DNA of 64,000 nucleotides, from contig JAMCRJ010000076.1 in assembly GCA_023381645.1 (NCBI GenBank), positions 62,001 through 126,000 of the forward strand. Reading direction: 5' to 3'. A program made the translations under genes and the position numbers. The stretch is from Gammaproteobacteria bacterium. GTDB taxonomy: Bacteria; Pseudomonadota; Gammaproteobacteria; Acidithiobacillales; Acidithiobacillaceae. The notes below the pieces were generated by a model that was not told the origin of the DNA, made no database searches, and worked only from the letters and a program-made list of their open reading frames with translations. Shown here piece after piece: positions 2,934-30,542 of the stretch. Positions within the stretch are counted from its first letter, which is position 1. The number at the start of each line of letters is the position of its first letter.

Positions 2934-3457
2934 GGGCGCAATCCTTTAGCCTGACGGCGGATTTCGCCAGCCAGCTCCCGATAAAATGTGAACTCGGCAT
3001 GCCCTTCCAGACAGTCGCAGAAACGATCCAGCCAGTCCGCCAGATATTCCCGGTAAAAATCTGCTGCCGCGGACGTATCGTCCTTCTCCAGAAAAAAGCT
3101 GATAAACTCCGCCATGGTGCCTAGGTAATCTGCAGGCAGCCCTTGAATGGCGAGCTCAAACTGTCCATAAAAACGTTCCAGTTCGCCGGCGCGGTGACCG
3201 TCCAGCACTCCGTCCTCCAGGAAAGGGGAAGCGAAGGGGGGACAGACGGCAGGGAAGGTGAATAGCCGGGTATGCTCACCCTGCCAGGCATCCAGGGCCA
3301 CTGTAGCCAATTCCCCCAGGGCGGGCGTCAACCACTCCGGCTGATAGGGTTGTTCGCTGATCAACTCCATGGAGTCGGCGGCGGGCTCGGCCAGGGCCAT
3401 GGCGATAAAGCGCCAGGCCTCCGCATGCACACCCGCTTCAGTGGCTGGTGAGGACAT
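2930..3457 (-). CDS. TorD/DmsD-family molybdoenzyme chaperone
   Basis: About 175 residues, all-helical in appearance. It shows the TorD-family layout EHTRLFTFPAVCPPFASPF (compare E-x-x-R-L-F ... P-P-x-x-S) and a conserved C-terminal helix with YREYLADWLDRFC. Such proteins bind the Tat signal of a molybdopterin catalytic subunit and hold it until the cofactor is inserted. I start at ATG 3457; the upstream extension to 3556 lies inside the NrfD gene and has unrelated Ser/Pro-rich composition. The start overlaps the nrfD-like gene by 20 bases and the stop overlaps the next gene, so it is translationally coupled in the operon. Confidence 0.75.
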   Translation of the reverse strand: MSSPATEAGVHAEAWRFIAMALAEPAADSMELISEQPYQPEWLTPALGELATVALDAWQGEHTRLFTFPAVCPPFASPFLEDGVLDGHRAGELERFYGQFELAIQGLPADYLGTMAEFISFFLEKDDTSAAADFYREYLADWLDRFCDCLEGHAEFTFYRELAGEIRRQAKGLRP

Positions 3458-4472: not shown

Positions 4473-5092
4473 ACGAGATCCTCCGGAAGCTTGTGGATGT
4501 AGTAAATATTGGGGCCGGTGCCCAGTTCGGTGAGCAGACCCTGAGCCTTGCCGGTGGCGACCACCTTGGTGATGAGATCGTTGGGGTTGTCCAGGTCACC
4601 AAAAATACGGGAGTGGGCCACACAGGTTTCCACGCAGGCGGGCTCCAGACCTTGCTGCAGGCGGCCGTAGCAGAAGTCGCATTTGTCGATGCTGGGCACC
4701 GTACGCTTGAGAAAATCCTTGCCGTAATAGCCTAGGCCCTTGTCGATATCGTTGCTGTCGGCAGGGTAGCGGGCATCGTAAGGACAGGCCATGGCGCAGG
4801 CCTGGCAACCCATGCAGATGTCGGGGTTGACGCGGACGATGCCATTGGCCTCCTTCCAGGTGGCGCCAGTCGGGCAGACGCTCACACAGGGCGGGTTATC
4901 GCAATGGTTACAGAGTTTGGGAAAAAACTGGCGGAGGAACTTGTCCCCGATTTCAATTTCTTCGTCGTACACATAGGTGCGGTACTTTTCCGGATTCCAC
5001 ACCGGCGTCTGGTTTTCCATGGCGCAAGCGGCCATACAGGCATTGCAGCCGACGCAGGTATCCAGATTGATGAGCATGGCATATTTGGTCAT
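4469..5092 (-). CDS. Four-[4Fe-4S] electron-transfer subunit (PsrB/PhsB-like)
   Basis: A 207-residue ferredoxin-like protein with four cysteine clusters: CVGCNACMAAC (C13, C16, C19, C23), CNHCDNPPCVSVCP, CMGCQACAMACP and CDFCYGRL...CVETCV. This is the standard DmsB/PsrB/PhsB arrangement that carries electrons from the NrfD anchor to the molybdopterin subunit. There is no Tat signal of its own; partners of this type are co-exported with the catalytic subunit. It lies 10 bases downstream of the catalytic gene and overlaps the NrfD gene. Confidence 0.88.
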   Translation of the reverse strand: MTKYAMLINLDTCVGCNACMAACAMENQTPVWNPEKYRTYVYDEEIEIGDKFLRQFFPKLCNHCDNPPCVSVCPTGATWKEANGIVRVNPDICMGCQACAMACPYDARYPADSNDIDKGLGYYGKDFLKRTVPSIDKCDFCYGRLQQGLEPACVETCVAHSRIFGDLDNPNDLITKVVATGKAQGLLTELGTGPNIYYIHKLPEDLV

Positions 5093-5102
5093 GACAGATT
5101 CC

Positions 5103-7853: not shown

Positions 7854-7928
7854 TTGAAGGCCTCCTGTGCACAATAAGCGCTATGTTTTTAATAATATAA
7901 TGAGTTTAGTATGTCATTATATGGTGAT

Positions 7929-16702: not shown

Positions 16703-17044
16703 ATGGGCACTATGCCGAGTTGTCCAAAATGCAGTTCAAATTACGTCTATGAAGATGGCAATCTTTATATATGTCCAGAGTGCGCACAGGAATGGCCAAA
16801 AGAAAACAATCTGGAAAATATTGACTCCCGTCGCGCTTCTGATGCAAATGGCAGTGCCATCAATGATGGAGATACCGTGGTCGTGGTGAAAGATCTCAAG
16901 ATAAAAGGTTCGTCATCAATAATAAAAGTTGGAACAAAAATAAAAAACGTCCGCATTGTTGATGGCGATCATAACATTGATTGCAAGGTGGATGGCGTTG
17001 GTGCGATACAGTTGAAGTCGGAGTTTCTGCGAAAAGCGCCATGA
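16703..17044 (+). CDS. PhnA/YjdM-type zinc-ribbon protein
   Basis: 113 residues. N-terminal zinc ribbon CPKCSSNYVYEDGNLYICPEC (CxxC twice), then a compact beta domain with INDGDTVVVVKDLKIKGSSS and GDHNIDCKVDGVGAIQLKSEFL. This is the PhnA/YjdM family, annotated historically as alkylphosphonate-utilisation protein PhnA although it is not itself a phosphonate enzyme in E. coli. ATG 16703 has GGAAGG 7 bases upstream; an upstream in-frame extension to 16628 has no support. Its stop overlaps the cbbR start by ATGA. Confidence 0.85.
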   Translation: MGTMPSCPKCSSNYVYEDGNLYICPECAQEWPKENNLENIDSRRASDANGSAINDGDTVVVVKDLKIKGSSSIIKVGTKIKNVRIVDGDHNIDCKVDGVGAIQLKSEFLRKAP

Positions 17045-17952
17045 ACATGCATCTCACCTTTCGCCAGCTGCAGGTGTTTACCGCCGTGGCGAAACATCAG
17101 AGCTTTACCCGCGCCGCGCAGGCGCTCTATCTCAGCCAGCCCGCGGTATCCATGCAGGTCCGGCAGATGGAAGAGCAGGTCGGGCTGCCGCTCTTTGAAC
17201 AACTGGGGCGCCGGATTTATCTCACGGAAGCGGGGCGGGAAATGGCGCGCTACAGTACCGCCATTACCCAGCAACTCGAAGAGGCGGTGCAGGTGATCAA
17301 CGACCTCAAGGGGTTGGCAGGGGGGCATATTCATATCAGTGTGGCCACTACCGGGGCTTATATTGCGCCCTATCTGCTCGCGGCGTTCAGCAAATTACAT
17401 CCGCAGGTGACGGTCAGCATGGATGTCACCAACCGGGAGACCCTGCTGCATCAACTCGCGGAGAACGAAGTGGATATTGCCATCATGGGGCGGCCGCCTG
17501 CGGGGCTGGCGCTGGAGGCTACAGCCTTTCTGGAAAATCCGCTGGTGATTATTGCAGCACCGGATCATCCCTTGGCGCGGATCAAGGCGATTACTCTGGA
17601 CATGCTGGCAACTTACTCCTTCATCATGCGGGAGCCAGGTTCAGGGACGCGGATCGCGGTGGAACAATTTTTCGAAAAGGCCGGGGTTGCGCTGCACGCG
17701 AGCATCGAAGTCAGCAGCCACGAGGCGATCAAGCACGCGGTGCGCGCCGGTATGGGGCTGGGCGTCGCGTCTCTGCATACGGTGCGGGAAGAGTTGCTGG
17801 CGGGACACCTGGCGGTGCTGGATGTGCAGGGCATGCCTATCGAACGCCATTGGTATCTGGTGCATCGTCAGGGTAAGCGCCTCTCGGCGGCTGCTCAGGC
17901 CTTCCGGGATTTTTTGCTGAACCAGGATGCGGCGCGGTTGCTGCCCGCATAG
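17041..17952 (+). CDS. cbbR: LysR-family regulator CbbR
   Basis: About 303 residues. N-terminal winged helix-turn-helix (residues ~3-62: LTFRQLQVFTAVAKHQSFTR, AARALYLSQPAVSMQVRQ-like) followed by the two-lobed effector domain, closest in appearance to CbbR regulators (DLKGLAGGHIHISVATTGAYIAPYLLAAF). It probably activates the RuBisCO operon in response to metabolites. ATG 17041 overlaps the stop of the PhnA-like gene; ATG 17047 is an alternative. It converges on cbbO with only six bases between stops, unlike the usual divergent cbbR-cbb arrangement. Confidence 0.83.
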   Translation: MNMHLTFRQLQVFTAVAKHQSFTRAAQALYLSQPAVSMQVRQMEEQVGLPLFEQLGRRIYLTEAGREMARYSTAITQQLEEAVQVINDLKGLAGGHIHISVATTGAYIAPYLLAAFSKLHPQVTVSMDVTNRETLLHQLAENEVDIAIMGRPPAGLALEATAFLENPLVIIAAPDHPLARIKAITLDMLATYSFIMREPGSGTRIAVEQFFEKAGVALHASIEVSSHEAIKHAVRAGMGLGVASLHTVREELLAGHLAVLDVQGMPIERHWYLVHRQGKRLSAAAQAFRDFLLNQDAARLLPA

Positions 17953-17958
17953 GGGCCC

Positions 17959-20238
17959 CTACCGGGTCAGGGCGATAAACAGTTCCGGCAGCTTTTCCGG
18001 CAGTCTGGCAATGTGGTCGATGACGGTATACTGACGGCCGAAGATGTCGGCGACATAGGCGTCGGCATGGGGATCGAGGCTGATACAGTAGGTGAAGATG
18101 CCGTCGCGATCCAGCTCATTGACCGCCTGGCGGGCGTCTTCGATCAGGAGACGATCGTCCTGCACATCGACGTCGGAGGGTCGGCCATCGGTGAGTACCA
18201 GCAGGAGTTTCTTGTCGGCCTTGCGTGCCGACAGATAGTGTCCCGCGTGGCGCATGGCGGCGCCCATCCGGGTCGAGTAACCGGCCTGGAGTGCCGCCAG
18301 GCGGCCCTTGACGGTGTCTCCCCAGGGTTCGGAGAAACCCTTGATGTGCTGATAGCGCACTTCATGGCGGGTGTTGGAATTAAAGCCGGCAACGGCCAGC
18401 GGATCGCCGAGTTGTTCAATGGACCAGGCGAGCAGTGATACCGCTTCCTGCGACAGTTGCAACACCGTCTGGCCGTCGCCGCCGCCGGTTTTGACGGGCT
18501 CGTTCAGTGATTCGGACAAGTCCAGCAGCAGGGTCACGGCGATATCGCGGCCGGCCGTGCGATGGCTCATGTTGATGCGTGGGTCGGGGGTGCTGCCGCT
18601 CTTGAAATCGATCCAGGAAAGCAGGGCGACGTCCAGATCCAGTTCGCTGCCTTCTTCCTGATAGCGGATGCGCACCTTGTCCTGCGGTTTGAGCAGATCG
18701 AGCAGGCGTTTGAGGTGCTTGGCGAGCGCCGCATGCTTGAGGAGCAGTTGATCGATGGTCGCTGCGGCCGCCGAAGCGTGCAGCCCTTCATAGAGGCTGA
18801 CCCAATCGGGCCGGTAACTCTGACTCTGATAATCCCATTCGGGATAGTGGCGCGGCGGCAGGCCTTGGGCTTCCAGATCGGGCGCCTTGCGCTGTTCAGT
18901 GTCAAAGACCTCTTCCTCATCACCGGATTCGATGAAGCGCCATAAGCCGCGGTTGTCGTCGCGGTAGCTGATCTCGGTATCGGCGAAATGCACTTTGGCG
19001 AACTGATCGCTCTGGCGGCGTGTGGTGGTGACATAATCCAGCGCCAGCCGGGCCATGGTCGGCGTATCGGCATTGCCGCCCGCGAGTTCCCGGTGAAAAC
19101 GGCCGACAAAGTCATGGAGCACGGGATTGCGGTACCCATGTGTCGGGTCGAGCAGCGCCCGCGACAGCATCGCCAGACGATGACGCAGGCAGGAGGTCGT
19201 CTCCGGGTCGCAGGCGCCTTCGGCGGGTTTGGGGTGCAGGGCGAGGAGGATCGCGCGCAGGCCGGGATAGGTCCGGATGAGCAGAGTGTCGATGCGGGCG
19301 TCCTCGAAAAACTCCACCGCCAGGCGCTGAAACGGACTCCAGTTGTCGGCTGTTTGCGGGCTTGACCAGCGCCGGTGACCGACCATATGCGCCAGGATCG
19401 CGCGGTAGTGGTCCAGCGCGCTGACGCCCGGCAGATCATCGAGCACATCCGGCAACCGCATGCCGAGCGCGTCGTAGTAGGGCTGCGGTGTGCGCAGCGT
19501 GGCAAAGGCTGTGGAATAGGGGACCAATACTTCGCTGTCCTGCCAGAGCCCGTGCAGGTACAGGTCGAGTTTGCGTTCGACGTCCGCCAGCAGGGTGCCG
19601 TGTCGTTCGCGCTGCAGCACCGCCCGGCTGTCGGCCGACTGTAGCGAGAAGAAGTCTTTTTGACGTTCGGGGTGGTGGAGATAATTGCGCACGCCATAGT
19701 CGACCCAATTGCGCAAGCCATCCACGGTCAGGCTCTGCAACAGGGTGGGTGCCTGGCGCAGGAGCGCCGGCAGACCGGGACTGGGGTGGGTCTGGTGATG
19801 GCCGTGGATGGAGCCGGTGGTGCGTTCCATCATGTCGCGCAGCACGTTCAGGTAATCTCTCAGCAACTCGCGGCTCTGCAGGGCGCGGCTGACCGGCGCC
19901 AGGGTTTGCAGAAATCCGCCAATGGCGTTGCCGTTGGGCGAGCGCTGCATGTGCTGCACCATCTGCATGACCATTTCCAGCGTATCGTCGCCCAGCGCGG
20001 CACCGACGTCCGGCCACTCTTCGAGGAAAATCAGGACCGGCTCTTCACCTCGCCCGAGTTTGCAAAGGGTACGCGCCGCATCAACATAGGCACTCACGCC
20101 CGACGGGCTGAGGCGGGCGCTGGCTTGGGCGATACAGTCGGGGAACACCTCGCCGACCCGGGGAAAGCGACAGTCGAGCTGATTCCGGTAGGTCGCCAGG
20201 CGGGACGGCAGGGAGGCGTCGTGCGGATGATCCATCAT
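17959..20238 (-). CDS. cbbO: RuBisCO activase subunit CbbO (VWA domain)
   Basis: About 759 residues. Long helical N-terminal region, then a C-terminal von Willebrand A domain (~residues 560-755) with MIDAS DLSES (D-x-S-x-S), TRMGAAMRHAG and VLTDGRPSDVD. CbbO binds RuBisCO, and with hexameric CbbQ remodels inhibited active sites using ATP. A TTG nine bases upstream (20247) would also be in frame; I use the first ATG (20238). It follows cbbQ closely, and its stop codon is part of a 12-base palindrome shared with the cbbR stop. Confidence 0.9.
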   Translation of the reverse strand: MMDHPHDASLPSRLATYRNQLDCRFPRVGEVFPDCIAQASARLSPSGVSAYVDAARTLCKLGRGEEPVLIFLEEWPDVGAALGDDTLEMVMQMVQHMQRSPNGNAIGGFLQTLAPVSRALQSRELLRDYLNVLRDMMERTTGSIHGHHQTHPSPGLPALLRQAPTLLQSLTVDGLRNWVDYGVRNYLHHPERQKDFFSLQSADSRAVLQRERHGTLLADVERKLDLYLHGLWQDSEVLVPYSTAFATLRTPQPYYDALGMRLPDVLDDLPGVSALDHYRAILAHMVGHRRWSSPQTADNWSPFQRLAVEFFEDARIDTLLIRTYPGLRAILLALHPKPAEGACDPETTSCLRHRLAMLSRALLDPTHGYRNPVLHDFVGRFHRELAGGNADTPTMARLALDYVTTTRRQSDQFAKVHFADTEISYRDDNRGLWRFIESGDEEEVFDTEQRKAPDLEAQGLPPRHYPEWDYQSQSYRPDWVSLYEGLHASAAAATIDQLLLKHAALAKHLKRLLDLLKPQDKVRIRYQEEGSELDLDVALLSWIDFKSGSTPDPRINMSHRTAGRDIAVTLLLDLSESLNEPVKTGGGDGQTVLQLSQEAVSLLAWSIEQLGDPLAVAGFNSNTRHEVRYQHIKGFSEPWGDTVKGRLAALQAGYSTRMGAAMRHAGHYLSARKADKKLLLVLTDGRPSDVDVQDDRLLIEDARQAVNELDRDGIFTYCISLDPHADAYVADIFGRQYTVIDHIARLPEKLPELFIALTR

Positions 20239-20256
20239 GGAGGTCAATGCCGCGCT

Positions 20257-21075
20257 TCAGGCGAAGGTCATGTCGATGGCGTGTTCCAGCGTCGCGCGGA
20301 TGTCGGCGTCATCGGTGATCGGCTGCACCAAAGCCATGCGGCAGGCCGCGTGCGGTGCCACCCCATCGTCCATCAGCATGGCGGCATAGACCAGTAGCCG
20401 GGTGGAGATGCCCTCATCCAGACCATGACCCTTGAGGCGACGGGCGGTAGCGGCCACGGCGACCAATTGGGCGGCTATGGCCGGCGCCACACCGGTTTCC
20501 TGCACCAGAATCCCGGTTTCCAGTTCGGCGTTGGGATAATCGAACTCGAAGCCGGTAAAGCGCTGCTTGGTGGACTGTTTGAGATCCTTCATCAGCGACT
20601 GATAGCCGGGATTGTAGGAAATCACCAGTTGAAAGTCGGGGTGCGCCCGGATCAGTTCGCCCTTCTTGTCCAGCGGCAGGGTACGGCGATGGTCGGTAAG
20701 CGGGTGGATCACCACGGTGGTGTCCTGACGGGCCTCGACTATTTCGTCCAGATAGCAGATCGCGCCGTAGCGCGCCGCCACTGTGAGGGGGCCGTCCTGC
20801 CAGCGGGTACCGTTCTTGTCGAGCAGCCAGCGGCCGACCAGATCGGCGGCGGTCATGTCCTCGTTACAGGCTACGGTGACCAGCGGTTTGCCGAGGCGCC
20901 AGGCCATGAATTCGACAAAGCGGGATTTGCCGCAGCCGGTCGGCCCCTTGACCATCACCGGCAGCCGCTTGCGGTAGGCGGCTTCAAACAGGGCGACTTC
21001 GTCGTGCTGAGGCTGGTAGAACGGTTCCTTGCCTACCAGGTACTGGTTCAGGATGGAGGAATCTGTTGCAGTCAT
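20257..21075 (-). CDS. cbbQ: RuBisCO activase ATPase CbbQ (MoxR-type AAA+)
   Basis: 272 residues. Walker A GPTGCGKS at 44-51, Walker B AICYLDE with D110-E111, sensor and arginine-finger region around STKQRFTGFEFDYP. MoxR-family AAA+ ATPase that works with CbbO to reactivate form II or form I RuBisCO. GGAG lies 7 bases before the ATG. It sits 143 bases downstream of cbbM, with a strong hairpin terminator in between, so it is expected to be expressed below cbbM. Confidence 0.92.
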   Translation of the reverse strand: MTATDSSILNQYLVGKEPFYQPQHDEVALFEAAYRKRLPVMVKGPTGCGKSRFVEFMAWRLGKPLVTVACNEDMTAADLVGRWLLDKNGTRWQDGPLTVAARYGAICYLDEIVEARQDTTVVIHPLTDHRRTLPLDKKGELIRAHPDFQLVISYNPGYQSLMKDLKQSTKQRFTGFEFDYPNAELETGILVQETGVAPAIAAQLVAVAATARRLKGHGLDEGISTRLLVYAAMLMDDGVAPHAACRMALVQPITDDADIRATLEHAIDMTFA

Positions 21076-21218: not shown

Positions 21219-22598
21219 TTACCGGTGTACGCCCAGCTTTTCGCGCCAGCCCGGGTAGAGCTTGTCGGCATCGCCCGGGAAGGATTCGAAGGCCCGTGCG
21301 AATTCCTTGTGCTCCCTGGCGTACTCAATGGGATCAGCACCCGCCTTCCAGCACTCGTAAGCCTGACGCAGGGAGACCGCGCCGGCCGCCGGGCTGTCGA
21401 TATGGCCGTAGGAGCCACCACCTGCCGTGTTGATCACGTTGCCGTGCCCCAGGTTCTCGAAGAAGCCGGGCAGACGCAGGGCATTCATGCCGCCGGAGAT
21501 GATGGGCGTGGTGGGTTTCATGCCATACCACTCCTGATGGTAAACGGGGCCGTCACAACTGTCGCGTTCGATCATGTAGGCGATGTTACGGTCGTCGGCA
21601 CCGCCTTCCATCTTGCCGTAGCCCATGGTGCCCACATGAATACCGGACGCACCCTGCAGGCGGGACATCTTGGCCAGCACGAAGGCGGTGTAGCCGCGCT
21701 TGGCGCTGGGTGAGGTGATCATGCCGTGGCCGGCGCGGTGATAGTGCAGGTACTGGCCGGCATACTGGCGGCGTGCCGTGGTGATCATGCCTGGCCCACC
21801 GACGAAGCCATCTACCAGAAAGGCCAGTTTGTCGGCGTCGGGACCGAAGGTTTCCAGGGCGAAGTCAGCGCGGGCGCACATTTCGTAATGGTCGTCGGCG
21901 GTGATGTTCATGGAGAACAGTTTGGCCTCACCCGTTTCGTCCATGGCGCGTTTCATGGCGTCATACACCAGCGGGATGGTCTTTTTCACCGGGGCGAAGA
22001 CCTGGTTACCCTGGGGCTCGTCATTCTTGATGAAGTCGCCCCCGAGCCAGAACTGATAGGCCGCTGCGGCAAAGGGTTCGGGGCGCAGACCCAGCTTGGG
22101 TTTGATGATGGTGCCGGCAATATAGCCGCCGTCCTTGATTGGGCGGCCGAGGATGCGCCACAGATCAGAGATATCCTTGGCCGGGCCGTCAAACAACTGA
22201 ATGGCGCGCGGGGGCATGAAAAAGTCGATCATCTGGCCGTGCTCGATGTCGCCCATGCCCTGGTTGTTGCCGATGACCAGCGTCAGGAAGGAGACAATCA
22301 TCATGCGGCCATCGGTGACGTTGCGGTCGAACAGCTCCAGCGGATAGGCGATACGCATATCCTCGGTGGCTTCGTCGATATGATACACCAGCGCGTCCAC
22401 ACCCTTGGTGAAGTCGTCGGTGGTCGACACCTCGACGTTGGTGCCGGTGGACGATTCCGCGGCAAAGTGGGCGGCAGCCTCGAGATAACCGTGGCCACCC
22501 TTGGGCTTCATTTTGTAGGCCACCAGAATGTGTTTGCCGCCAGAGATAAGGTCTTCCTCTTTCAGGGAAAGGTCGGCATAGCGATTAGATTGATCCAT
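21219..22598 (-). CDS. cbbM: Form II RuBisCO CbbM
   Basis: 459 residues, the usual length of form II. Catalytic K166 in GTIIKPKLG and carbamylated K191 in [10 protein letters not shown] fall exactly at the Rhodospirillum rubrum positions; the C-terminal phosphate site [14 protein letters not shown] is intact. It carboxylates ribulose-1,5-bisphosphate in the Calvin cycle. Form II has low CO2/O2 specificity and suits high CO2 or low O2. AGAGGA lies 7 bases before the ATG. First gene of cbbM-cbbQ-cbbO. Confidence 0.97.
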
Positions 22599-22854
22599 GG
22601 TTATTCCTCTTGTGCATATTGCATATGGATAATGAAAAGTCCGATGTTGCGGTTGACATCCCGCCGGATCCGGCCGATGGACCGTGCAAGCAGCGCGTTT
22701 CCCGCAACAAAATAAAAAACCCTAGACATTGTAGCATTGTCAAACCGACCCATATACCAGAAGAATCTTATTGGACAGGTAAGCATCAGCTTATGGATCG
22801 TTTCACCCCGTTTTTGCGGGACTGCGTCAGGTTTTCGGTGCCGGAGTCCGTCGG
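22599..22854 (-). promoter_or_regulatory. cbbM promoter region
   Basis: This 256-base gap between the Ehr-type operon and cbbM must hold the cbbM promoter and CbbR site. On the minus strand a TTGACA (22737-22742) is followed closely by TACAAT (about 22728-22733), an overlap too tight to be one sigma-70 promoter; TACAAT is a good -10 but lacks a matching -35, as expected for a LysR-activated promoter. T-N11-A LysR half-motifs are present but not unique. I see no convincing terminator for the upstream operon, so read-through into cbbM is possible. Confidence 0.4.
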
Positions 22855-23355
22855 TCAGCCGTTTATTCGTTCCCCGGACACCTGCAAAAGTCCCCGTAGC
22901 AGCGCGCCTGGGTCCGGCGGACAGCCCGGTATCTGCAGATCCACCGGCAAGACCTCCGCGACGCCGCCCATGACCGCATAACTGCCCCGGAACACGCCGC
23001 CACCACAGGCGCAGTCGCCAACGGCGATGACCCGCCGCGGTTCGGGCGTGGCATTATGGCAGTCCTGCAAAGCCGCGACCATGTGGCGGGTCACTGGTCC
23101 AGTCACTGTCAGCACATCCGCGTGACGCGGCGAGGCAGTGAAGTGGAAGCCTGCCTGCTCCAGGCCATAATGTGGGCCGCCCAGGGCATTCAGCTCCAGC
23201 TCGCAACCATTACAGGATCCCGCATCCACATGGCGGATGCCGAGGCTGTGGCGAAAAACAAGGGGGCTGGCGGAGGATGGGTCCCGCTCCGTCCGCGGCG
23301 GTGTCTCTCCCGCCCTTCCCAGCCGCAGCAGCTCACGCAATATCCGGTACATCAC
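22855..23355 (-). CDS. Ehr-type complex small subunit (HyfI/HycG/NuoB-like)
   Basis: 166 residues. It has the NuoB/hydrogenase-4 small-subunit motifs SCNGCELEL, GDCACGGG and PGCPPDP, so the four cysteines that ligate the proximal [4Fe-4S] cluster (N2 equivalent) are kept. It would transfer electrons to or from the large subunit at 23389-24936, at the membrane face of the peripheral arm. Last gene of the six-gene complex; 33 bases follow the large-subunit gene. Confidence 0.85.
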   Translation of the reverse strand: MMYRILRELLRLGRAGETPPRTERDPSSASPLVFRHSLGIRHVDAGSCNGCELELNALGGPHYGLEQAGFHFTASPRHADVLTVTGPVTRHMVAALQDCHNATPEPRRVIAVGDCACGGGVFRGSYAVMGGVAEVLPVDLQIPGCPPDPGALLRGLLQVSGERING

Positions 23356-23388
23356 CGCCTCCTTCCGGGAACCGTCCCCGTGCCGTGC

Positions 23389-24936
23389 TCACAGATCATG
23401 ACCGCTGTAACTCAGGTTGAAAGATTTGTTGATGAGCGGAAAATCGGCGACGATATCGCGCAGGACCGCCTCTTCCAGTGCCGGCCAGAGGGTCCACGAC
23501 GGGTCCTGGGGATGACAGCGGCGAATATGTCCCTGCTCCAGGCGCAACCAGAAAAATACCTCTCCCCGCCAGCCCTCCACCCAACCAACACCCTCTCCCA
23601 CAGCATCCCGGAGATCCGGCGGTTGGCGCACGTTCCCGCCGGGCAGTTTGCGGAGGATTTCCTCCTGCAGGCGCAGCGACTCGAAAATCTCGAGAAAGCG
23701 CACCGCCATGCGTGCCGCGACGTCACCCTCTGTGGCGGTGGTCATGCGTACCTGAATCTGATCGTAAGGGGGTTGGGGAAATTGTATGCGTTGGTCCCAG
23801 GGTTGGCCGCTGGCGCGACCGGCGACCCCCATGAGTCCCAGTTGCGCCGCCCGTTCCGGAGGAATCATGCCCAGCCGCACCACGCGGTCGCGCAGACCGC
23901 CATGTTCGGCAAGAATTTCCTGTAGACGCTCGACGGCGGTTCCAAGCGCTTGCCCCGCACTGCGGAGGGCCGCGACGGCCACAGCCGTAAGGTCAAAGTC
24001 CACTCCACCGGGCAAGATCCGGTCCATAAGGTAGCGATGCCCGATATAGCGCTGATTCTCCCGCAGCAGATCCTCCTTGAGAGCCTGAAACTGGGTCAGG
24101 GCGAAGGCCAGTCCGGCGTCGTTGCCGAGGGCGCCGATGTCACCGAGGTGATTGGCGAGGCGCTCCCGTTCCAGGCAGAGGGCGCGCAGCCATTGGGCGC
24201 GTTCTGGGACCTGCATCGCGGCGATCTGCTCCACCGCCTGGGCATAACTCCATGCATACGCCACTGTGCTGTCGCCGCTGATCCGTCCGGCTAGACGTGC
24301 GCCTGACTCCACATCCAGGCCCTGGAGCAGGCGTTCCACCCCTTTGTGTGTATAACCGAAGCGTTCCTCCAGGTGGAGAATCTCTTCTCCCAGGACCTGG
24401 AAGCGGAAGTGCCCCGGCTCGATGATGCCGGCATGTATGGGGCCCACCGGAATCTCATGGGCATCCGGGCTAGCCGCAGACACGAAGGCATAGTCTCCGT
24501 CTCCGGCGGTAGAGAGGTTTTCAGCGCGAAAATCCGTGCGTAGAGGAAACTGATCCGCAGGCCATGCGGCATGCCGCAGCCAGGGACGGGTGTCGCCGTT
24601 CCCCGCGCGAATGCCCAGCAGGTCGTATAGGGCGCGTTCCATGCGCAGCGCGCCCGGAAAAATGGCGGTCAGGCTCGGGCAGGATGCCACAGCTGGGTCT
24701 ACGATCATCTCCGTATGCACGATGCCCGTCTCCGACAAAAAGGCCGCATGGACGAGATGACCGGGTTCTTCGGTACGGCGGTCCTCGCCCCAGAGAGCCA
24801 GCAGGCGACCCCCCTGCGCATGGATGTTTTCGGCGGCAAGGAGCCAATACTCTTTGCAGAGGCGACCGGACCACACCGGCAATGTCGTACCCCATTGCCG
24901 GAAATCGGTCAGTACGCGCAGTGCGGGGTTGGGCAT
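23389..24936 (-). CDS. Ehr-type complex large subunit (HyfG/HycE/NuoCD-like) without NiFe ligands
   Basis: 515 residues. Residues ~1-150 are NuoC-like (FPGALRMERALYDLLG); the rest is NuoD/HycE-like, with the hallmark GPIHAGIIEPGHFRF, LEERFGYTHKG. The first metal motif of true hydrogenases (R-x-C-G-x-C) reads RISGDS, and the C-terminal DPCxxC reads DPSWTL. All four nickel-iron cysteines are therefore missing and hydrogen chemistry is not expected. The family is the energy-converting-hydrogenase-related (Ehr) group, between complex I and group 4 hydrogenases. Conserved NKSFNLSYSG ends the protein. The substrate is unknown. Confidence 0.85.
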   Translation of the reverse strand: MPNPALRVLTDFRQWGTTLPVWSGRLCKEYWLLAAENIHAQGGRLLALWGEDRRTEEPGHLVHAAFLSETGIVHTEMIVDPAVASCPSLTAIFPGALRMERALYDLLGIRAGNGDTRPWLRHAAWPADQFPLRTDFRAENLSTAGDGDYAFVSAASPDAHEIPVGPIHAGIIEPGHFRFQVLGEEILHLEERFGYTHKGVERLLQGLDVESGARLAGRISGDSTVAYAWSYAQAVEQIAAMQVPERAQWLRALCLERERLANHLGDIGALGNDAGLAFALTQFQALKEDLLRENQRYIGHRYLMDRILPGGVDFDLTAVAVAALRSAGQALGTAVERLQEILAEHGGLRDRVVRLGMIPPERAAQLGLMGVAGRASGQPWDQRIQFPQPPYDQIQVRMTTATEGDVAARMAVRFLEIFESLRLQEEILRKLPGGNVRQPPDLRDAVGEGVGWVEGWRGEVFFWLRLEQGHIRRCHPQDPSWTLWPALEEAVLRDIVADFPLINKSFNLSYSGHDL

Positions 24937-24946
24937 GGTGGCGTCC

Positions 24947-26404
24947 CTATCCGTGAAGAAGTTGGGCGGCGTGCTGCATCCACTGGACCAGCGTCAAGGG
25001 GATGAACACCCCGAGCACAGCGACGAGGGTCAATTGGATGAAGACGGGAATGATGCCGACGACGGACACGCGCGCAACGCCTTCCAGAGGCGCCCCGAAG
25101 ACCATGCTCTGCATGCGCGGGAAAATCCCGGCGAAAGCTACACCCAACCCCAGCAGGAGCAGGGGCGTGAGCCAGGGCTGGGCCTGCAGGGTACTGGTGA
25201 TGATCAGGAATTCGCTCAAGAAAAGCCCGCTGGGGGGCATTCCCAGGATGAACAGCACCGCCAGCATGAACGCCCAGCCCAGCAAGGGGCTGAATTCCAG
25301 CAAGCCGCGGATGCGCTGGATTTCGCGGCTGCCGATGTCCTGCACCGCTTGCCCGACCGAGAAAAACACCGAGGATTTGGTCAGGCTGTGGCTGACCATG
25401 TGCAGCAAGCCCGCAAAGCTCGCTAGTGGTCCGCCGATCCCGAAGGCGAAGGTGGCCAGCCCCATATGCTCGATGGAGGAGTAGGCAAAAAGCCGCTTCA
25501 CATCTCGTTGCCGCAGCATGGAAAAGCCTGCCACCAGCAGGGAGAGCAAACCGAAACCCATCAGCAGGTGGCTGGCGAAGTCCCGACCCAGAGCGCCATC
25601 CACCAGTACCTTGGCGCGCAGGATGGCGTAGAGGGCGACATTGAGCAACAGACCGGAGAGCACCGCCGAAACCGAACTGGGGCCGCTGGCGTGGGCATCC
25701 GGCAGCCAGTTGTTGAGTGGGGTCAGGCCGATTTTGGTTCCGTAGCCCACCAGCATGAAGATGAAGGCGATGGCCATGACCTGCGGATCCAACTGATGGC
25801 GCACGATCGCCAGATGCGTCCACAACAATGCGTCCGCACCGTGTCCCATGATTTTCTGGGCGGCGAAATACAGCAGGATCGTACCGAATAGCGCCATCGC
25901 CAGGCCGACGCCGCAGAGAATGAAATACTTCCAGGCCGCCTCCAGGCCCTCAGCGGTGCGGAAGAGGCTCACCAGCAGTACCGTGGACAGGGTGGCGCCT
26001 TCCATGGCCACCCAGAGGATGCCCATGTTGTTGGTCAGCAGGGCCAGCAGCATGGTGGCGAGAAAGGTCTGGAACATGACGTGATAAAGGCGGACACGCC
26101 GGCGGGAGAGCGACCAGTGCACCGTTTCGTGCAGCATATAGTTGCGGGAGAACCACGCCGTACTGAGCCCCACCACGCCATCCACCAGTACCAGCACGAT
26201 ACTGAGATCATCCACCATGAATTCCCCGCCACCCGCGGTAAGTGCACCGTCTTGCAGCACCTGAAGGGCCAGGGCCAGGATGGCCAGCAGCGTCAGCGTA
26301 TTGAAGCCGATGAACAGCGCCGCCCCCCGGCGTCCGTCGCCCCACAGGGCAAGCAGGGGGATGCCCATCGCTGCACAAGCCAGAACCAGCAGAATCAGCA
26401 TCAT
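24947..26404 (-). CDS. HyfF-like antiporter-type membrane subunit (NuoL/M/N family)
   Basis: 485 residues, about 14 transmembrane helices. Proton-channel family signatures: a conserved helix with HAMEGATLSTVLLVSLF-type sequence (WVAMEGATLS), YGTKIGLTPLNNWLPDAHASGPSSVSAVLSG and YSSIEHMG. The TKxGLxPxxxWLPDAH motif is that of HyfF and complex I antiporter-like subunits, with Lys and Glu for ion transfer. Overlaps the HyfE-like gene by ATGA; 10 bases precede the large-subunit gene. Confidence 0.87.
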   Translation of the reverse strand: MMLILLVLACAAMGIPLLALWGDGRRGAALFIGFNTLTLLAILALALQVLQDGALTAGGGEFMVDDLSIVLVLVDGVVGLSTAWFSRNYMLHETVHWSLSRRRVRLYHVMFQTFLATMLLALLTNNMGILWVAMEGATLSTVLLVSLFRTAEGLEAAWKYFILCGVGLAMALFGTILLYFAAQKIMGHGADALLWTHLAIVRHQLDPQVMAIAFIFMLVGYGTKIGLTPLNNWLPDAHASGPSSVSAVLSGLLLNVALYAILRAKVLVDGALGRDFASHLLMGFGLLSLLVAGFSMLRQRDVKRLFAYSSIEHMGLATFAFGIGGPLASFAGLLHMVSHSLTKSSVFFSVGQAVQDIGSREIQRIRGLLEFSPLLGWAFMLAVLFILGMPPSGLFLSEFLIITSTLQAQPWLTPLLLLGLGVAFAGIFPRMQSMVFGAPLEGVARVSVVGIIPVFIQLTLVAVLGVFIPLTLVQWMQHAAQLLHG

Positions 26405-27078
26405 TCCTCCCGGATATGTTCCAGATTCTGGAGATCCATGCTGTCGAAGGTCTCCCGTATCTGAAAAAAGAACACGCCGAGAATGACGAAGCCGATCAGG
26501 GCATCCAGGGCTACGCCCAGTTCCACGATCATCGGCATGCCCAGGGTGGCGCTGGTCGCGGCGAAGAAGAGACCGTTATCGACGGCCAGAAAACCCACCA
26601 CCTGAGAAATGGCCTTGCGCCGCGTGATCATCATCAGGAAAGCGAGCAGCACGGCGGCGAGGGCAATGCCGACCATGCCGCGGGTCACGGGGCCGGTCAG
26701 GGCGGTGATGGGGGCGGCAAGGGAGAAAGCGAAGATCACCAGCGCGATGCCGGCGAGCAGGGTCAGGGGGATGTTGAGCACGGCCTCCACATCGCCATGC
26801 ACCTGCAGGCGTCGTAACAGACGATGCAGTACCGTCGGGATCAGAATGGCCTTCAGCCCCAGGGTCAGGGCTGCGGAAAACCACAATTCCGTCTGCCCGG
26901 TCAGCAGCGCCACCAGCGCCGTGCCGGCCGCGAGGACTACTCCCTGCCAAGCGAGGAGATGGATCAGGGTGAGGAGACGCCGTTGCGCCAGCATGGCGAA
27001 AGCGAGCAGCAGGAGGAGGGCGGCGAGGAGCCTCAGCAGGGGGGTGCCCCAGGCGAGTCCCTGTGCGGTGATGATCAT
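26401..27078 (-). CDS. HyfE-like membrane subunit
   Basis: 225 residues, about six to seven hydrophobic helices. The closing segment QVVGFLAVDNGLFFAATSATLGMPMIVELGVALDALIGFVI is typical of hydrogenase-4 component E, whose C-terminal part corresponds to NuoK, including buried acidic residues (VELGVALD). Between the HyfC-like and HyfF-like genes, as expected in hyf-type operons. Confidence 0.85.
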   Translation of the reverse strand: MIITAQGLAWGTPLLRLLAALLLLLAFAMLAQRRLLTLIHLLAWQGVVLAAGTALVALLTGQTELWFSAALTLGLKAILIPTVLHRLLRRLQVHGDVEAVLNIPLTLLAGIALVIFAFSLAAPITALTGPVTRGMVGIALAAVLLAFLMMITRRKAISQVVGFLAVDNGLFFAATSATLGMPMIVELGVALDALIGFVILGVFFFQIRETFDSMDLQNLEHIREE

Positions 27079-27079
27079 G

Positions 27080-28021
27080 TCATGCCCCCAGCATGAAAAA
27101 AGTCAGAAGCCCGATGACCCCGAGCAGAAAGGCGGTGGCCATGAACTCCGGGGCGCGGAAAAGCCTGAGCTTGGCGAGCAGGGTTTCGACCAGTGCCAGG
27201 ATCACGGCGGCACCCGCGAATTTCAGCAGCAGGACTGGCAGGGTCACGGGCAGTGACGCGATTTCTGCGGTGGGCACGATACCCCAGGGCAGGAACAGCG
27301 CAATACCGATGGCCACATAGAGCGTCAGCTTGATCTGCGCCCCCCACTCCATGAGTGCGAGGTGCCGTCCCGAGTACTCCAGGAGCATGGCTTCGTGAAT
27401 CATGGTCAGTTCCAGGTGAGTAGCGGGATTGTCCACGGGAATCCGCGCATTTTCCGCCAGCAGCACGATGAAAAAGGCGGTGGCCGCGAAAACCATGCTG
27501 GGGTGCAGGGCGAAGCGCAGTTGCTCCAGGTGGGCCACGATCACGCTCAGCGAAGTGGACCGGGAGAGCAGGGACGCCGTAAAGAGTGTGGCCAGCAGGG
27601 CGGGCTCCGCGAGCCCGGCGATCAGCATTTCCCGATGGGCGCCCAGGGTGGCGAAGGGTGTCCCCGTGTCCATGGCCGCCAGCACCTGAAGAACCCGTGC
27701 CAGGGCGAACAAACCCACCAGGGCGATGACGTCGGCGGCCGGCGCCAGAGGCAGGCCGGTGGCAAGGATGGGGATGATCGCCGCCGCCAGACAGAGCGCC
27801 CCGAAAATCCCGTAAGGGGCAAAGCGGAAGAGCCAGGACGTGCCCTCCGCCTGTAGAGATTCTTTATGGAACAGGCGATACAGATCACGGTAGTTCTGCC
27901 AGCAGCCTGCCGGTCGCCGGTTTTGCAGGATCGCCCGCAAGGCCCGCAGCAACCCCGCAAAGAGTGGCGCCAGAAATGCCACCAGCAGTACCTGTGCCAG
28001 TTCCAGCAGTATGCCGGTCAT
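27080..28021 (-). CDS. HyfC/HycD-like membrane subunit (NuoH family)
   Basis: 313 residues, about eight helices. NuoH-family features: LLRALRAILQNRRPAGCWQNYRDLYRLFHKE in the N-terminal loop and ENARIPVDNPATHLELTMIHEAMLLEYSG in the C-terminal half, carrying the acidic residues that line the E-channel. This subunit links the peripheral arm to the antiporter-like subunits. Start overlaps the HyfB-like stop by ATGA. Confidence 0.87.
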   Translation of the reverse strand: MTGILLELAQVLLVAFLAPLFAGLLRALRAILQNRRPAGCWQNYRDLYRLFHKESLQAEGTSWLFRFAPYGIFGALCLAAAIIPILATGLPLAPAADVIALVGLFALARVLQVLAAMDTGTPFATLGAHREMLIAGLAEPALLATLFTASLLSRSTSLSVIVAHLEQLRFALHPSMVFAATAFFIVLLAENARIPVDNPATHLELTMIHEAMLLEYSGRHLALMEWGAQIKLTLYVAIGIALFLPWGIVPTAEIASLPVTLPVLLLKFAGAAVILALVETLLAKLRLFRAPEFMATAFLLGVIGLLTFFMLGA

Positions 28022-30000
28022 CGCCAGACCGCCAGCAGGATCAGCAGGGTCAGGAAGCTGTAGAGCAGATACAGGGTGATGCGACCCTGCTGCAGGCGCA
28101 GCACCTGAGCCGAGAGCCAGAAGGCAAGAAGGCTCAGGGGTTGATAGAAGCCACGGTACAGGGGTTCTCCGATCCGCATTCGCCAGCGGCCGGCGCCGTC
28201 TACCTCCCGTTCCGCCTGATACAGCGGGGCGAAGATGCGCAGCAGGGGTTGCGCAAACCCCAGTGCGCTATCCTGCATGTCCGGCGTCCGGACGGGAAAA
28301 CCGCAGGCCCAGACTGACACACGCCTCAGGGGCCGGCCAAAGAAACTCCAGATGAGGAGAAAACTCAGCCCTAGGGCGGCGGCCATGCCGAGGAAGAAAA
28401 TGACCGGACTGTAACTGGCGCGTTGCGCGGAGACCGGGGTTAGCCACAGCCCCTGCTGGGCGGCGAAGCCTTGGCCGAGCATTTCCTGCAGCACGGGATG
28501 CAGCAGATTCAACAGGACACCCGGAAAGAGTCCGAGGAAAATACAGGCGACACTCAGCAGGGCCATGGCCGAGTGTTCCCAGCGTCCGGCCTCGTGGGCA
28601 TGCCGTGCGCCGCGCGCCTGACCGAGAAAGGCGATACCGTAAAACTTGACCATGGCATAGGCCGCCAGAGCTACCGCCAACACGACGCCGGAGGCCGCCA
28701 GGGGCAATACCGCGCTGAGGGTGCTTTGGGGCAGAGCGGGCGACAGCAGAAACGCCTGCAGGAGCAGCCATTCGGAAACGAAGCCGTTGAGGGGAGGCAG
28801 TCCGGCGATGGCGAGGGTGCCGAAGAGCATGAAAAATGCGGTTAGAGGCATCTGCCGGATCAGGCCGCCCAGTCGATCCATGGCCACGCTGCCCGCTCCG
28901 TGCAGTACGCTGCCGCTGCCGAGAAAAAGCAGGCCCTTGAAGAAGGCGTGGTTCAGGGCGTGATACAGGGCGGCGGCCAGAGCCAAGGCCGCCAGGGCAC
29001 CGAGTCCATGCGTGCGGAAGATCAGGGCGAGGCCGAAGGCTACCATGATCAACCCCATGTTTTCTATGGAGGAATAGGCCAGCAGGCGTTTCATGTCCGT
29101 CTGGACGGCAGCGAAAAGCACACCGAAGAGGGCCGTCGCCAGCCCCACCCCCAGTACAAAGGGACCCCACCACGAGGCCGGCTTGCCGAGAAAGAGGAAG
29201 TCCACCCGCAACATGCCATAGAAGGCCATCTGCAGCATTGCCCCGCTCATCAGCGCGGAGACCGGGGCGGGAGCCGCGGGATGGGCGTCCGGCAGCCAGA
29301 TGTGGAGGGGAAGCAAGCCCGCCTTGGCACTGAATCCGAAAAAGGTCAGGAGAAAGGCGGCCGATGCCCAGAACGGATCGAGGGGCGCGTGCAGCATGGC
29401 GCTGAACGGCCCGCCCTGGGCTATGGCCGTTCCGGCGAGGAGGACGAAGCCCAGCAAGATGGCCAGCGCCCCAAGGTGGGCGATGAGCAGATAGAGGAAA
29501 CCGGCATGACGGCTGCTCGCCTCTTCATGCTCCGTCACCACCAGGAAATACGAGGCCAGCGCCATGATTTCCCAGGCGACCAGGAAAGTGAAGGCATTGG
29601 CCGCCAGCAGAACCAGTCCCATCCCCAGCAGAAAGGTGTGGTATTGGAGCATGAACCGACGCAGTGCCGGTCCCGACAGGGCGCGGAAATAGCCGGCGGC
29701 AAACAGGGTTACCGCGAAGGCCAGCAACCCCAGCAGAATCAGGAAAAATCCCGAGAGGGGATCGATCTGGAAAGACCAGGGCAAGGCGGGCAGGGACCCG
29801 CGCAGTTGCAGTTGGTCCGGAGGTGCCATCAGCGCGCTGAATCCGGCTACGGCCAGCAGCAGGGCAACCACGCTGCTGAGGGGGAAGATCAACCGGCAGG
29901 CGGCGGTTGGCGATCCGCCCAGCAGAAATCCCAGCAGCCCCAGACCCAGCCAGAGCAGTAATGCCCCAGTGGCGAGATCCAGAGGCAGGCAGGAAATCAC
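28018..30000 (-). CDS. HyfB-like antiporter-type membrane subunit (NuoL/N family)
   Basis: 660 residues, about 15-16 helices. Contains WEIMALASYFLVVTEHE, GFSAKAGLLPLHIWLPDAHPAAPAPVSALMSG and YSSIENMG, the antiporter-like proton-channel signatures, and a longer C-terminal region as in HyfB/HycC. GTG start at 30000 forms a GTGA overlap with the stop of the XRE-cupin regulator, so it is translationally coupled to that gene. Ion-translocating arm of the Ehr-type complex. Confidence 0.87.
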   Translation of the reverse strand: MISCLPLDLATGALLLWLGLGLLGFLLGGSPTAACRLIFPLSSVVALLLAVAGFSALMAPPDQLQLRGSLPALPWSFQIDPLSGFFLILLGLLAFAVTLFAAGYFRALSGPALRRFMLQYHTFLLGMGLVLLAANAFTFLVAWEIMALASYFLVVTEHEEASSRHAGFLYLLIAHLGALAILLGFVLLAGTAIAQGGPFSAMLHAPLDPFWASAAFLLTFFGFSAKAGLLPLHIWLPDAHPAAPAPVSALMSGAMLQMAFYGMLRVDFLFLGKPASWWGPFVLGVGLATALFGVLFAAVQTDMKRLLAYSSIENMGLIMVAFGLALIFRTHGLGALAALALAAALYHALNHAFFKGLLFLGSGSVLHGAGSVAMDRLGGLIRQMPLTAFFMLFGTLAIAGLPPLNGFVSEWLLLQAFLLSPALPQSTLSAVLPLAASGVVLAVALAAYAMVKFYGIAFLGQARGARHAHEAGRWEHSAMALLSVACIFLGLFPGVLLNLLHPVLQEMLGQGFAAQQGLWLTPVSAQRASYSPVIFFLGMAAALGLSFLLIWSFFGRPLRRVSVWACGFPVRTPDMQDSALGFAQPLLRIFAPLYQAEREVDGAGRWRMRIGEPLYRGFYQPLSLLAFWLSAQVLRLQQGRITLYLLYSFLTLLILLAVWR

Positions 30001-30542
30001 TGGGCTACCACCACCAACAGGGTCGTTGCGGAGTGGCCGCGGTTGTGCCAGTTGTGGGGCAGCCGCGGATCATAGTAAATGGCGTCGCCTTCCCCCAGTT
30101 CCGTGATCACCCCGGATTGCTCAAAAGCGGCTGTCCCACGGATGACGATGGTGAATTCTTCTCCCTCGGCACTGGTATAGGGGTGCTCACCACACTCCCC
30201 GCCCGGTTCAAGTACCATCAGCAGCGGTTGCATTTTCTTTTGCGGCAGGCCGCGGGCCAGCGGCTCCAGTGAAGCGTGGGAACCGGCACTGTAAAACTTG
30301 CGCCGGTCACCGCTGCGCATGATCCATGGCAAACCCGCCGTTTCACCGTCATCGAAAATCGCGGCGATGGGAATCTGCAGCGCCGCGCAGATTTTTTCCA
30401 GCGTGGCGATGGAGGGGGAGTTCTGCCCGGCCTCGATCTGCGAGAGGGCACTGGGCGAAATTTCGGCACGCGCCGCCAGTCCGCGCACGGACCATCCCTT
30501 ATCCTCGCGAAGTTGCCGAATTTTTTTGCAGACCTGTTCCAT
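29997..30542 (-). CDS. XRE-family regulator with C-terminal cupin domain
   Basis: 181 residues. Helix-turn-helix of XRE/SinR type at ~5-60 (IRQLREDKGWSVRGLAARAE, SPSALSQIEAGQNSPSIATL), then a cupin at ~95-178 (HPYTSAEGEEFTIVIRGTA, LGEGDAIYYDPRLPHNWHN) with His/Glu residues that could bind a metal or small ligand. It overlaps the first structural gene of the Ehr-type complex, so it is probably the operon's own regulator. The ligand is unknown. Confidence 0.85.
   Translation of the reverse strand: MEQVCKKIRQLREDKGWSVRGLAARAEISPSALSQIEAGQNSPSIATLEKICAALQIPIAAIFDDGETAGLPWIMRSGDRRKFYSAGSHASLEPLARGLPQKKMQPLLMVLEPGGECGEHPYTSAEGEEFTIVIRGTAAFEQSGVITELGEGDAIYYDPRLPHNWHNRGHSATTLLVVVAQ

Follow-up and report, generated by a model that had tools for sequence, protein, structure and literature searches.

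Introduction

Clusters of the composition hyfBCEFGI, which share their gene names with hydrogenase-4, have been reported in Cupriavidus metallidurans (PMC2864759), in vent Epsilonproteobacteria (PMC3958643), in Nitrospira (PMC5596200) and in Acidithiobacillus ferrooxidans, whose complex HydDB classes as a non-hydrogenase (PMC7735108); these and further reports are cited here for the passages that concern the genes in question. In Nitrospira such complexes, named Ehr, lack the CxxC ligand motifs, and their function is described as unknown (PMC10284858). Here we analyse a cluster with the same six genes on the minus strand (positions 22855-30000) of a 64,000-nucleotide stretch, hereafter the window, from a gammaproteobacterium of the Acidithiobacillaceae (assembly GCA_023381645.1, contig JAMCRJ010000076.1, positions 62,001 to 126,000). 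The window set is tied to genes for an XRE-cupin regulator and for form II RuBisCO, a tie not mentioned for the published Ehr clusters in the cited passages of PMC7735108, PMC2864759, PMC3958643, PMC5596200 and PMC10284858.

That the complex is of the Ehr kind, and that the A. ferrooxidans orthologue is not a hydrogenase, is already known. In that species the adjacency of hyf (AFE_2149-54; PMC2621215) and cbbM (AFE_2155; PMC6458275) can be read from the published locus tags, with which the gene order of the window agrees. In A. caldus core hyf genes co-occur with carbon-fixation genes and a formate dehydrogenase lies a few genes upstream; a second cluster of hyf genes lies next to one for a beta-carbonic anhydrase, and the role in CO2 or pH homeostasis that was proposed presupposes H2 production (PMC3826726). 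We found no report of a family-wide linkage between hyf and RuBisCO in the open-licence PMC literature. We find such a linkage, and propose from sequence and gene context that the complex would most likely pump protons in a redox-linked manner, have a pocket without metal and serve CO2 fixation in this family.

More distant relatives frame this proposal. Complex I and the window set have in common the peripheral core (NuoB-NuoD) and homologues of the pump arm. NuoB has tandem N2 cysteines, whereas the small subunit HyfI has CNGC; the quinone Tyr of complex I is absent, and there is no NADH module in the window cluster. A further comparison is with the DAB and DAC complexes, in which DabB is an antiporter-type protein; DabA (PF10070) is not found among the ten cluster proteins scanned, no genome-wide search for it having been made. 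DAB and DAC are multisubunit and act on CO2 (PMC10880623), and cyanobacterial NDH-1MS, an analogy only, is a complex-I-like pump coupled to CO2 hydration (PMC6981117). Unlike NDH-1MS, the window complex shows neither CupA nor a quinone site, although no search aimed at CupA was made; cupA and cupB are reported absent from A. ferrooxidans (PMC6458275).

Results

A large subunit without nickel-iron ligands

The formate hydrogenlyase/hydrogenase-4 system of E. coli (HycE, 7z0s) gives the best match to the large subunit HyfG by sequence and by fold, and HyfB and HyfF score above the hydrogenase-4 cut-offs; in contrast to that system, the window cluster is without nickel-iron cysteines, polyferredoxin subunits and a cleavable C-terminal tail. 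HyfG (515 residues; 23389..24936, minus strand) joins the 30-kDa and 49-kDa domains in a single protein (PF00329, PF00346, PF00374). It was aligned to solved structures with HMMER, by means of a profile (A1) of 24 HyfG sequences including its own; the matches score 294 bits for HycE, 171 for MbhL and 156 for the NuoD-type subunit. Foldseek places HycE (7z0s_E) first for the AlphaFold model, with E 4e-30 and a template modelling score of 0.81 by query length.

In this alignment RISGDS (residues 218-223; 24268..24285, minus strand) stands opposite HycE RVCGIC, which agrees with an earlier note on this DNA that had read the motif as the replacement of RxCGxC. The same note had found DPCxxC lost as well, and here the cysteines are indeed gone but the site is another one. 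DPSWTL (residues 478-483), which it proposed, is ruled out by the HycE alignment and lies 29 residues upstream of the true motif; HycE SLDPCYSCTD aligns with HyfG SFNLSYSGHD (residues 505-514), so that NLSYSG (residues 507-512; 23401..23418, minus strand) replaces DPCYSC. The four ligand positions read S220, S223, S509 and G512. With RxCGxC and DPCxxC of the group 4 [NiFe] hydrogenases (Hyf and formate hydrogenlyase) both absent from HyfG in the HycE alignment, the exclusion of nickel-iron chemistry is supported, because all four ligand cysteines are replaced. The protein stops three residues after NLSYSG and therefore has no cleavable tail. The Tyr of NuoD RLDYVS is the quinone residue of complex I; where the NuoD-type sequence aligns with RVSGDS its position is taken by G221. 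Alignment with HycE and NuoD, a check that the earlier note had suggested, shows neither nickel-iron cysteines nor the quinone Tyr.

Conservation was counted over 181 HyfG rows including the window's own, of which 137 are distinct and the others repeats (rows of the other subunits hold repeats too); one match per locus was kept for each query, and matches were dropped if they covered less than 80% of the length, held stops or X, or fell below a bit-score floor. D222 is found in 181/181 rows, S220 in 158/181 and S223 in 143/181; in the second motif Y510 and D514 are present in 179/179 and N507 in 178/179. Cys occurs at position 220 in 12 of the 181 rows and at 223 in two, and at 509 or 512 in none of 179. 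Also kept are E173 of EPGHFR (181/181), the Arg of the first motif (180/181) and R457 of (P/W)RG (180/180), which we take to be the proton-transfer Glu and the canopy Arg residues of hydrogenases. The AlphaFold model has a mean predicted local distance difference test score (pLDDT) of 75.7, with residues 140-189 and 494-515, part of the pocket, below 50, and for that reason we make no claim on pocket geometry.

A decayed, non-functional hydrogenase remnant would also have lost its ligand cysteines, as the window has, and as all rows have at positions 509 and 512. Yet the residues that replace them are invariant (D222, Y510, D514), all six frames are open, and in a contig scan 583 of at least 584 matched stretches encode relatives. 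Conservation of this kind disfavours decay, which appears very improbable.

The small subunit and the membrane arm

HyfI (166 residues, one [4Fe-4S] site; 22855..23355, minus strand; PF01058) retains its cluster cysteines, as the earlier note had seen: C48, C51 and C115 in 175/175 rows and C145 in 174/174, invariant in every row with a letter at these positions. Its closest solved relatives are MbhJ (6cfw_J) and formate hydrogenlyase subunit 7 (7z0s_G). Such cysteines would be superfluous in a pure ion exchanger, and they favour a role in redox balance, in which electron transfer by the complex, coupled to proton flow, would link a ferredoxin-like carrier to the respiratory chain and thereby supply or vent reductant for form II RuBisCO at low O2/high CO2. 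Speaking against this role, the cluster offers no electron input of the NuoI, HyfA or HyfH type, and the quinone Tyr of complex I is Gly here.

The membrane arm consists of HyfB (antiporter-type, 660 residues; 28018..30000; PF00361; NF005086, hydrogenase 4 subunit B, 800 bits, above cut-off), HyfC (NuoH-type, 313 residues; 27080..28021; PF00146), HyfE (small membrane subunit, 225 residues; 26401..27078) and HyfF (antiporter-type, 485 residues; 24947..26404; PF00361; NF005045, hydrogenase 4 subunit F, 786 bits, above cut-off), all encoded on the minus strand. Invariant charged residues are E144, K226, K304, K355 and E410 of HyfB (102/102 rows), E139, E190, D197, E204, E210 and E215 of HyfC (110/110) and K159, K224, K303 and K343 of HyfF (179/179). 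Charged residues of this kind line the proton channels of complex I. By its sequence the complex is of the Ehr type, that is, complex-I-like, derived from group 4 hydrogenases and without a nickel-iron site: HyfG is homologous to the large subunit of group 4 [NiFe] hydrogenases and to NuoD and has lost all four cysteines, HyfI has the proximal [4Fe-4S] cysteines, and the membrane subunits comprise one PF00146 and two PF00361 proteins. It is probably proton-translocating.

Two antiporter-type subunits with invariant charged residues would equally suit a general, Mrp-like proton or cation pump for homeostasis of pH or of the proton motive force, for which RuBisCO adjacency would reflect shared regulation or an inherited block; proton translocation by HyfEF has been suggested as an acid adaptation in vent Epsilonproteobacteria (PMC10696704). 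A pump of this general kind leaves the invariance of the pocket residues and of the iron-sulfur cysteines unaccounted for.

Composition of the cluster

The six minus-strand open reading frames (ORFs), hyfB first and hyfI last, are where the earlier note had placed them. Five of the six proteins hit the expected Pfam families; the exception, HyfE, has no Pfam match and is recognised by NCBIfam NF008556 ("hydrogenase 4 membrane subunit", E 2e-19, 70 bits) below the cut-off of 136. The start of the cluster has to be extended: it begins with a gene for an XRE-cupin regulator (29997..30542, minus strand; Pfam HTH_3 and Cupin_2), the first of the unit, which overlaps hyfB by 4 bp. Neighbouring hyf genes are spaced by -4 to +33 bp, which leaves no room for hyfA, hyfD or hyfH. 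The absence of the ferredoxin subunits HyfA and HyfH and of HyfD, also noted earlier, is upheld for the locus, no whole-genome search for HyfA or HyfH having been made; the single further window gene with ferredoxin-type motifs (4469-5092) lies between genes for a molybdopterin oxidoreductase and an NrfD-type protein and belongs with the former.

Among the best 80 loci of the contig scan, which are the named loci, 59 hold the full six-gene set in the order BCEFGI, and the remaining 21 are partial, many of them on short contigs. Given this recurrence, the grouping is beyond chance. The named large-subunit matches nearest to the window are from Acidithiobacillus, for example Acidithiobacillus sp. 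AMEEHan. At one locus, L157 (G062), a hyfG match was found and the other hyf subunits were not found within the 19 kb around it.

Linkage to RuBisCO within the Acidithiobacillaceae

We sampled 31 genomes, 29 of the family and two of its order, Acidithiobacillaceae being the family name that we infer for them. At a threshold of E <1e-140, hyf is present in 18. cbbM occurs in 14 genomes, all of them among the 18 hyf carriers, and in none of the 13 hyf-less ones (Fisher p 2e-5, or 0/11 and p 5e-5 when the family alone is counted, kinship being ignored in both). Since RuBisCO of some form is present in 30/31 genomes, hyf tracks form II rather than RuBisCO generally, a pattern that also speaks for a role in redox balance.

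Flanks are readable in 16 of the 18 hyf genomes; G013 and G014, at contig edges, are excluded from the linkage count. RuBisCO genes adjoin hyf in 14 of the 16, in three arrangements: hyf-cbbM in five genomes (G001, G003, G009, G012, G015), cbbMQO-XRE-hyf in seven (G002, G005, G006, G022, G023, G025, G027) and hyf-CbbR-form I cbbLQO in two (G018, G021). In a quick tree, made of relatives only and without reference hydrogenases, the HyfG proteins of the family form one clade, with the two main gene orders in separate subclades. These observations support a tie between hyf and Calvin-cycle CO2 fixation in the Acidithiobacillaceae. A linked block gained and lost whole, without shared function, would produce the same co-distribution.

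That the linkage is kept across three gene orders tells against a general pump. In its favour, the constant partner in the family, where the 5' side is readable, is the XRE-cupin regulator and not CbbR: a homologue adjoins hyf in L190, L191, L193, L194, L195 (partial match), L196-L199 and L203-L205, whether cbb genes are present or not, and XRE-hyf occurs in G024, where no cbb gene was found up to about 5 kb away. On balance we consider a general pump unlikely.

Some loci of this group have features of their own. In L193 (G012) hyfF, hyfG and hyfI are 95-96% identical to those of the window and cbbM is just 90% identical, while the cbbM of G015 is 100% identical, which may point to a replacement of cbbM in G012. 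Two copies of cbbM are present in G009. L001, on a contig binned as Thiomonas sp. KUB_Bin09, is a hyf-cbbM locus of the Acidithiobacillus type whose HyfG falls inside that clade, a probable mis-binning or misnaming.

Distribution across the class

In a class sample of 369 genomes, hyf was found in 44, any RuBisCO (at E 1e-75) in 170 and form II in 64; truncated RuBisCO genes may fall below the thresholds. Form II is present in 14/44 genomes with hyf and in 50/325 without (p 0.011), or in 13/43 when G001 is removed (p 0.029), and the class-wide link between hyf and form II is weak. The distribution of the operon relative to cbbM, which the earlier note had singled out as a test, is thus not random in the family and departs only slightly from random at class scale. 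Likewise, the service to carbon fixation that it proposed is borne out by linkage in the family and at single outside loci and is weak across the class; its form may be CO2 supply or reductant balance. The outside loci include G386, with the order cbbM-cbbQ-cbbO-SLAC1-hyf and a distance of 2.8 kb between cbbO and hyfB. Form I genes are separated from hyf by about 6 kb in G339 and by about 24 kb in G112 and G164; cbbM is about 66 kb away in G091, and RuBisCO genes are about 1 Mb away in G155 and about 2 Mb in G166.

The cbb genes and the gap before cbbM

Downstream of hyfI the window encodes, on the minus strand, cbbM (form II RuBisCO, 459 residues; 21219..22598; NF010002, 909 bits, above cut-off), cbbQ (AAA+ subunit of the RuBisCO activase; 20257..21075; PF07728 and PF08406) and cbbO (VWA activase adaptor; 17959..20247; PF00092), the last named from its position after cbbQ and from the published order cbbM-cbbQ-cbbO. 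Convergent with cbbO is a LysR-type regulator gene (16981..17952, plus strand; PF00126 and PF03466), probably the cbbR of the cluster, whose position fits that of cbbRm (AFE_2158) after cbbO in A. ferrooxidans (PMC6458275).

The earlier note had the operon running straight to cbbM with no clear terminator. A generic scan calls no terminator-like site in the hyfI-cbbM gap, as it had said; the gap, however, is 256 bp long and holds a promoter-like block. In an alignment (A4) of six hyf-cbbM regions and four regions of other order, the six have the following elements in common ahead of cbbM: a loose ATAN..CTTA dyad, AATAAGATTYT and an extended -10-like TGMTANAAT. The dyad presumably follows the LysR/CbbR consensus; it is a perfect palindrome in the window and G015 only and looser in the other four regions. 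In the window the block, a putative cbbM promoter (22728..22793, minus strand), comprises the palindrome TAAGCTGATGCTTA (22793-22780) and the extended -10-like TGCTACAAT (22736-22728). cbbM may therefore have its own LysR-controlled promoter and XRE-cupin-hyf may form a separate unit; because this conserved block precedes cbbM, co-transcription is not required, and a simple hyf-cbbM operon was set aside as a necessity. Read-through from hyfI into cbbM is possible, as the generic scan called neither a minus-strand promoter-like site nor a terminator-like site in the gap.

Other neighbours

Of the ORFs listed upstream 88 of 99 were family-scanned, and of those downstream 91 of 125; the selection was our own and concerned mostly long or doubtful ORFs. 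Neighbours were clustered with the hyf regions masked, to keep out antisense ORFs, and matches were listed for 140 loci (L081-L139 not among them). Downstream, no family occurs in more than three of the 91 scanned ORFs. Upstream of hyfB a same-strand SulP gene is found in nine of the 80 named loci (L002, L006, L017, L040, L041, L046, L056, L066, L078), with a CitMHS gene intervening in L040 and the SulP gene cut by the contig end in L041 and L078; L008 and L073 carry it in orientations other than this. The cbb-hyf cluster of G005 also has a SulP gene, situated 2.8 kb beyond cbbM on the far side of a LysR gene, and inspection by sight showed none in the parts examined upstream of cbbM in G027 and G023. 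As a universal partner SulP is ruled out; it recurs in some beta- and gammaproteobacterial loci only. Other anion-transporter types stand directly upstream of hyfB in L040 (CitMHS/TrkA-C protein) and L140 (SLAC1 channel).

The locus L006, from a Thiobacillus metagenome-assembled genome (MAG), has the order SulP, hyf, a gene for a CsoSCA-like carbonic anhydrase (PF20686, E 1.6e-5, above cut-off) and a LysR gene with 50% identity to a CbbR. The carbonic anhydrase-like protein contains CMDGR and, further downstream, H...C, which are, we assume, compatible with a beta-type zinc site. The same gene adjoins hyf in G112, 67% identical.

A formate-linked module, in which a formate dehydrogenase feeds electrons into the complex and the CO2 released goes to RuBisCO, has been proposed for A. 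ferrooxidans (PMC2621215), A. caldus (PMC3826726), vent Epsilonproteobacteria (PMC3958643) and Nitrospira (PMC5596200), and CO2 so released would suit form II RuBisCO. Those models, however, need a proton-reducing nickel-iron site, which is absent here. No formate dehydrogenase is found among the 25 commonest Pfam families of the 88 upstream and 91 downstream ORFs, no whole-genome search having been made, and no such large enzyme was seen by sight in the 15-17 kb upstream of three cbbMQO-XRE-hyf loci, where six ORFs were family-scanned. The molybdopterin oxidoreductase of the window (5103-7874) goes with NrfD and lies about 15 kb from hyfI. We regard a formate-linked module as improbable.

The set to which this oxidoreductase belongs (3438-7874, minus strand) has in a row genes for the 923-residue molybdopterin oxidoreductase, a 4Fe-4S protein and an NrfD-type membrane protein; it resembles polysulfide/tetrathionate reductases and may correspond to the sulfur reductase cluster described for A. 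ferrooxidans (PMC2621215). Elsewhere, cytochrome bd genes lie upstream of hyf in L066, a Methylothermaceae MAG (CydB by Pfam), and possibly, by sight, in L203 (G024).

Additional hyf modules also occur. L026 and L032, each on one betaproteobacterial contig, hold two modules in tandem, and the additional copy shares 37-56% identity with the genes of the window. In the family, L200, L201 and L202 (genomes G006, G005 and G020) are second, distant modules of the order hyfC-E-F-G-I-B, present twice in tandem in L202. Their large subunits are likewise without DPCxxC, the C-termini in L202 being ATWGLSIAENDR and ASFGLTIAGCDR. The small subunit of L200 carries a fused 4Fe-4S ferredoxin domain, and in L202 CrcB and DUF190 genes follow a module.

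Discussion

What does an Ehr-type complex do beside RuBisCO? Our tentative preference is that, in the Acidithiobacillaceae, it serves inorganic-carbon and proton handling at the membrane. A soluble low-potential carrier would dock on HyfI, a small molecule would be handled in the HyfG pocket with coupling to H+ movement, and the complex would energise CO2/HCO3- interconversion or exchange, together with carbonic anhydrase or SulP-type anion transporters. The A. caldus hyf cluster beside a beta-carbonic anhydrase gene counts for this reading (PMC3826726). It is further supported by the RuBisCO linkage and co-distribution, by the carbonic anhydrase, SulP and SLAC1 neighbours, and by an intact cluster with charged arm residues.

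Several observations weigh against inorganic-carbon handling. We know of no form II RuBisCO in carboxysomes and, since form II needs CO2, a pump that makes HCO3- is not obviously helpful to it. No carbonic anhydrase family is matched by Pfam in the six hyf subunits, the carbonic anhydrase-like gene is found at two of the 140 listed loci (L006, G112), and in the even class sample SulP adjacency amounts to 1/44 (G206), near a rough hand estimate of about 0.4 by chance. Across the class, any RuBisCO is present in 23/44 genomes with hyf and 147/325 without (p 0.42), counts by which RuBisCO is ruled out as a universal partner of hyf. The 21/44 hyf carriers without RuBisCO at E 1e-75 would fit a general pump as well. 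Outside the family cbbM stands beside hyf in one of 13 genomes that hold both, several of them on short contigs, and within it G007 (CbbR alone) and G024 (none) have hyf without an adjoining RuBisCO gene. Finally, cbbM transcripts rise at high CO2 (PMC6458275), and in cells grown on H2, in which CbbM was more abundant than any other RuBisCO form, no subunit of a group 4 Hyf was identified (PMC7735108); in the passages cited, these data offer no support for a pump that serves at low CO2 and is expressed together with cbbM. A separate cbbM promoter would fit both the absence of Hyf subunits amid abundant CbbM and the rise of cbbM at high CO2.

Redox balance ranks close behind inorganic-carbon handling and is nearly as likely. 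The rise of cbbM transcripts with CO2 is in its favour (PMC6458275), as is the reverse electron flow, driven by the proton gradient, that is reported for A. ferrooxidans (PMC2621215). In A. ferridurans a "formate hydrogenlyase" protein, said to be Hyf-linked and possibly of this cluster, is up together with proteins of anaerobic Fe3+ reduction (PMC12053936). On the other hand, redox balance leaves the carbonic anhydrase and SulP neighbours unexplained.

A bolder form of inorganic-carbon handling, doubtful at present, is that the complex would be a third, independently evolved complex-I-derived inorganic-carbon machine beside NDH-1MS and DAB. A Ser/Asp/Asn pocket would have taken the place of its nickel-iron site and would handle CO2 or bicarbonate by means of the proton path kept from the hydrogenase; in chemolithoautotrophs the machine would be linked to RuBisCO, carbonic anhydrase and SulP.

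Ehr complexes are widespread, with at least 583 relatives here and a function called unknown in the literature cited (PMC10284858). To our knowledge, the RuBisCO linkage in this family is a strong contextual handle on them, in an organism in which the matter can be tested. If carbon handling or reductant balance is their role, the labels hydrogenase-4 and formate hydrogenlyase that such genes bear in many genomes would be misleading. Carbon uptake by acidophiles is modelled as passive diffusion of CO2 together with SulP (PMC6458275); in that case, such models would need a further component.

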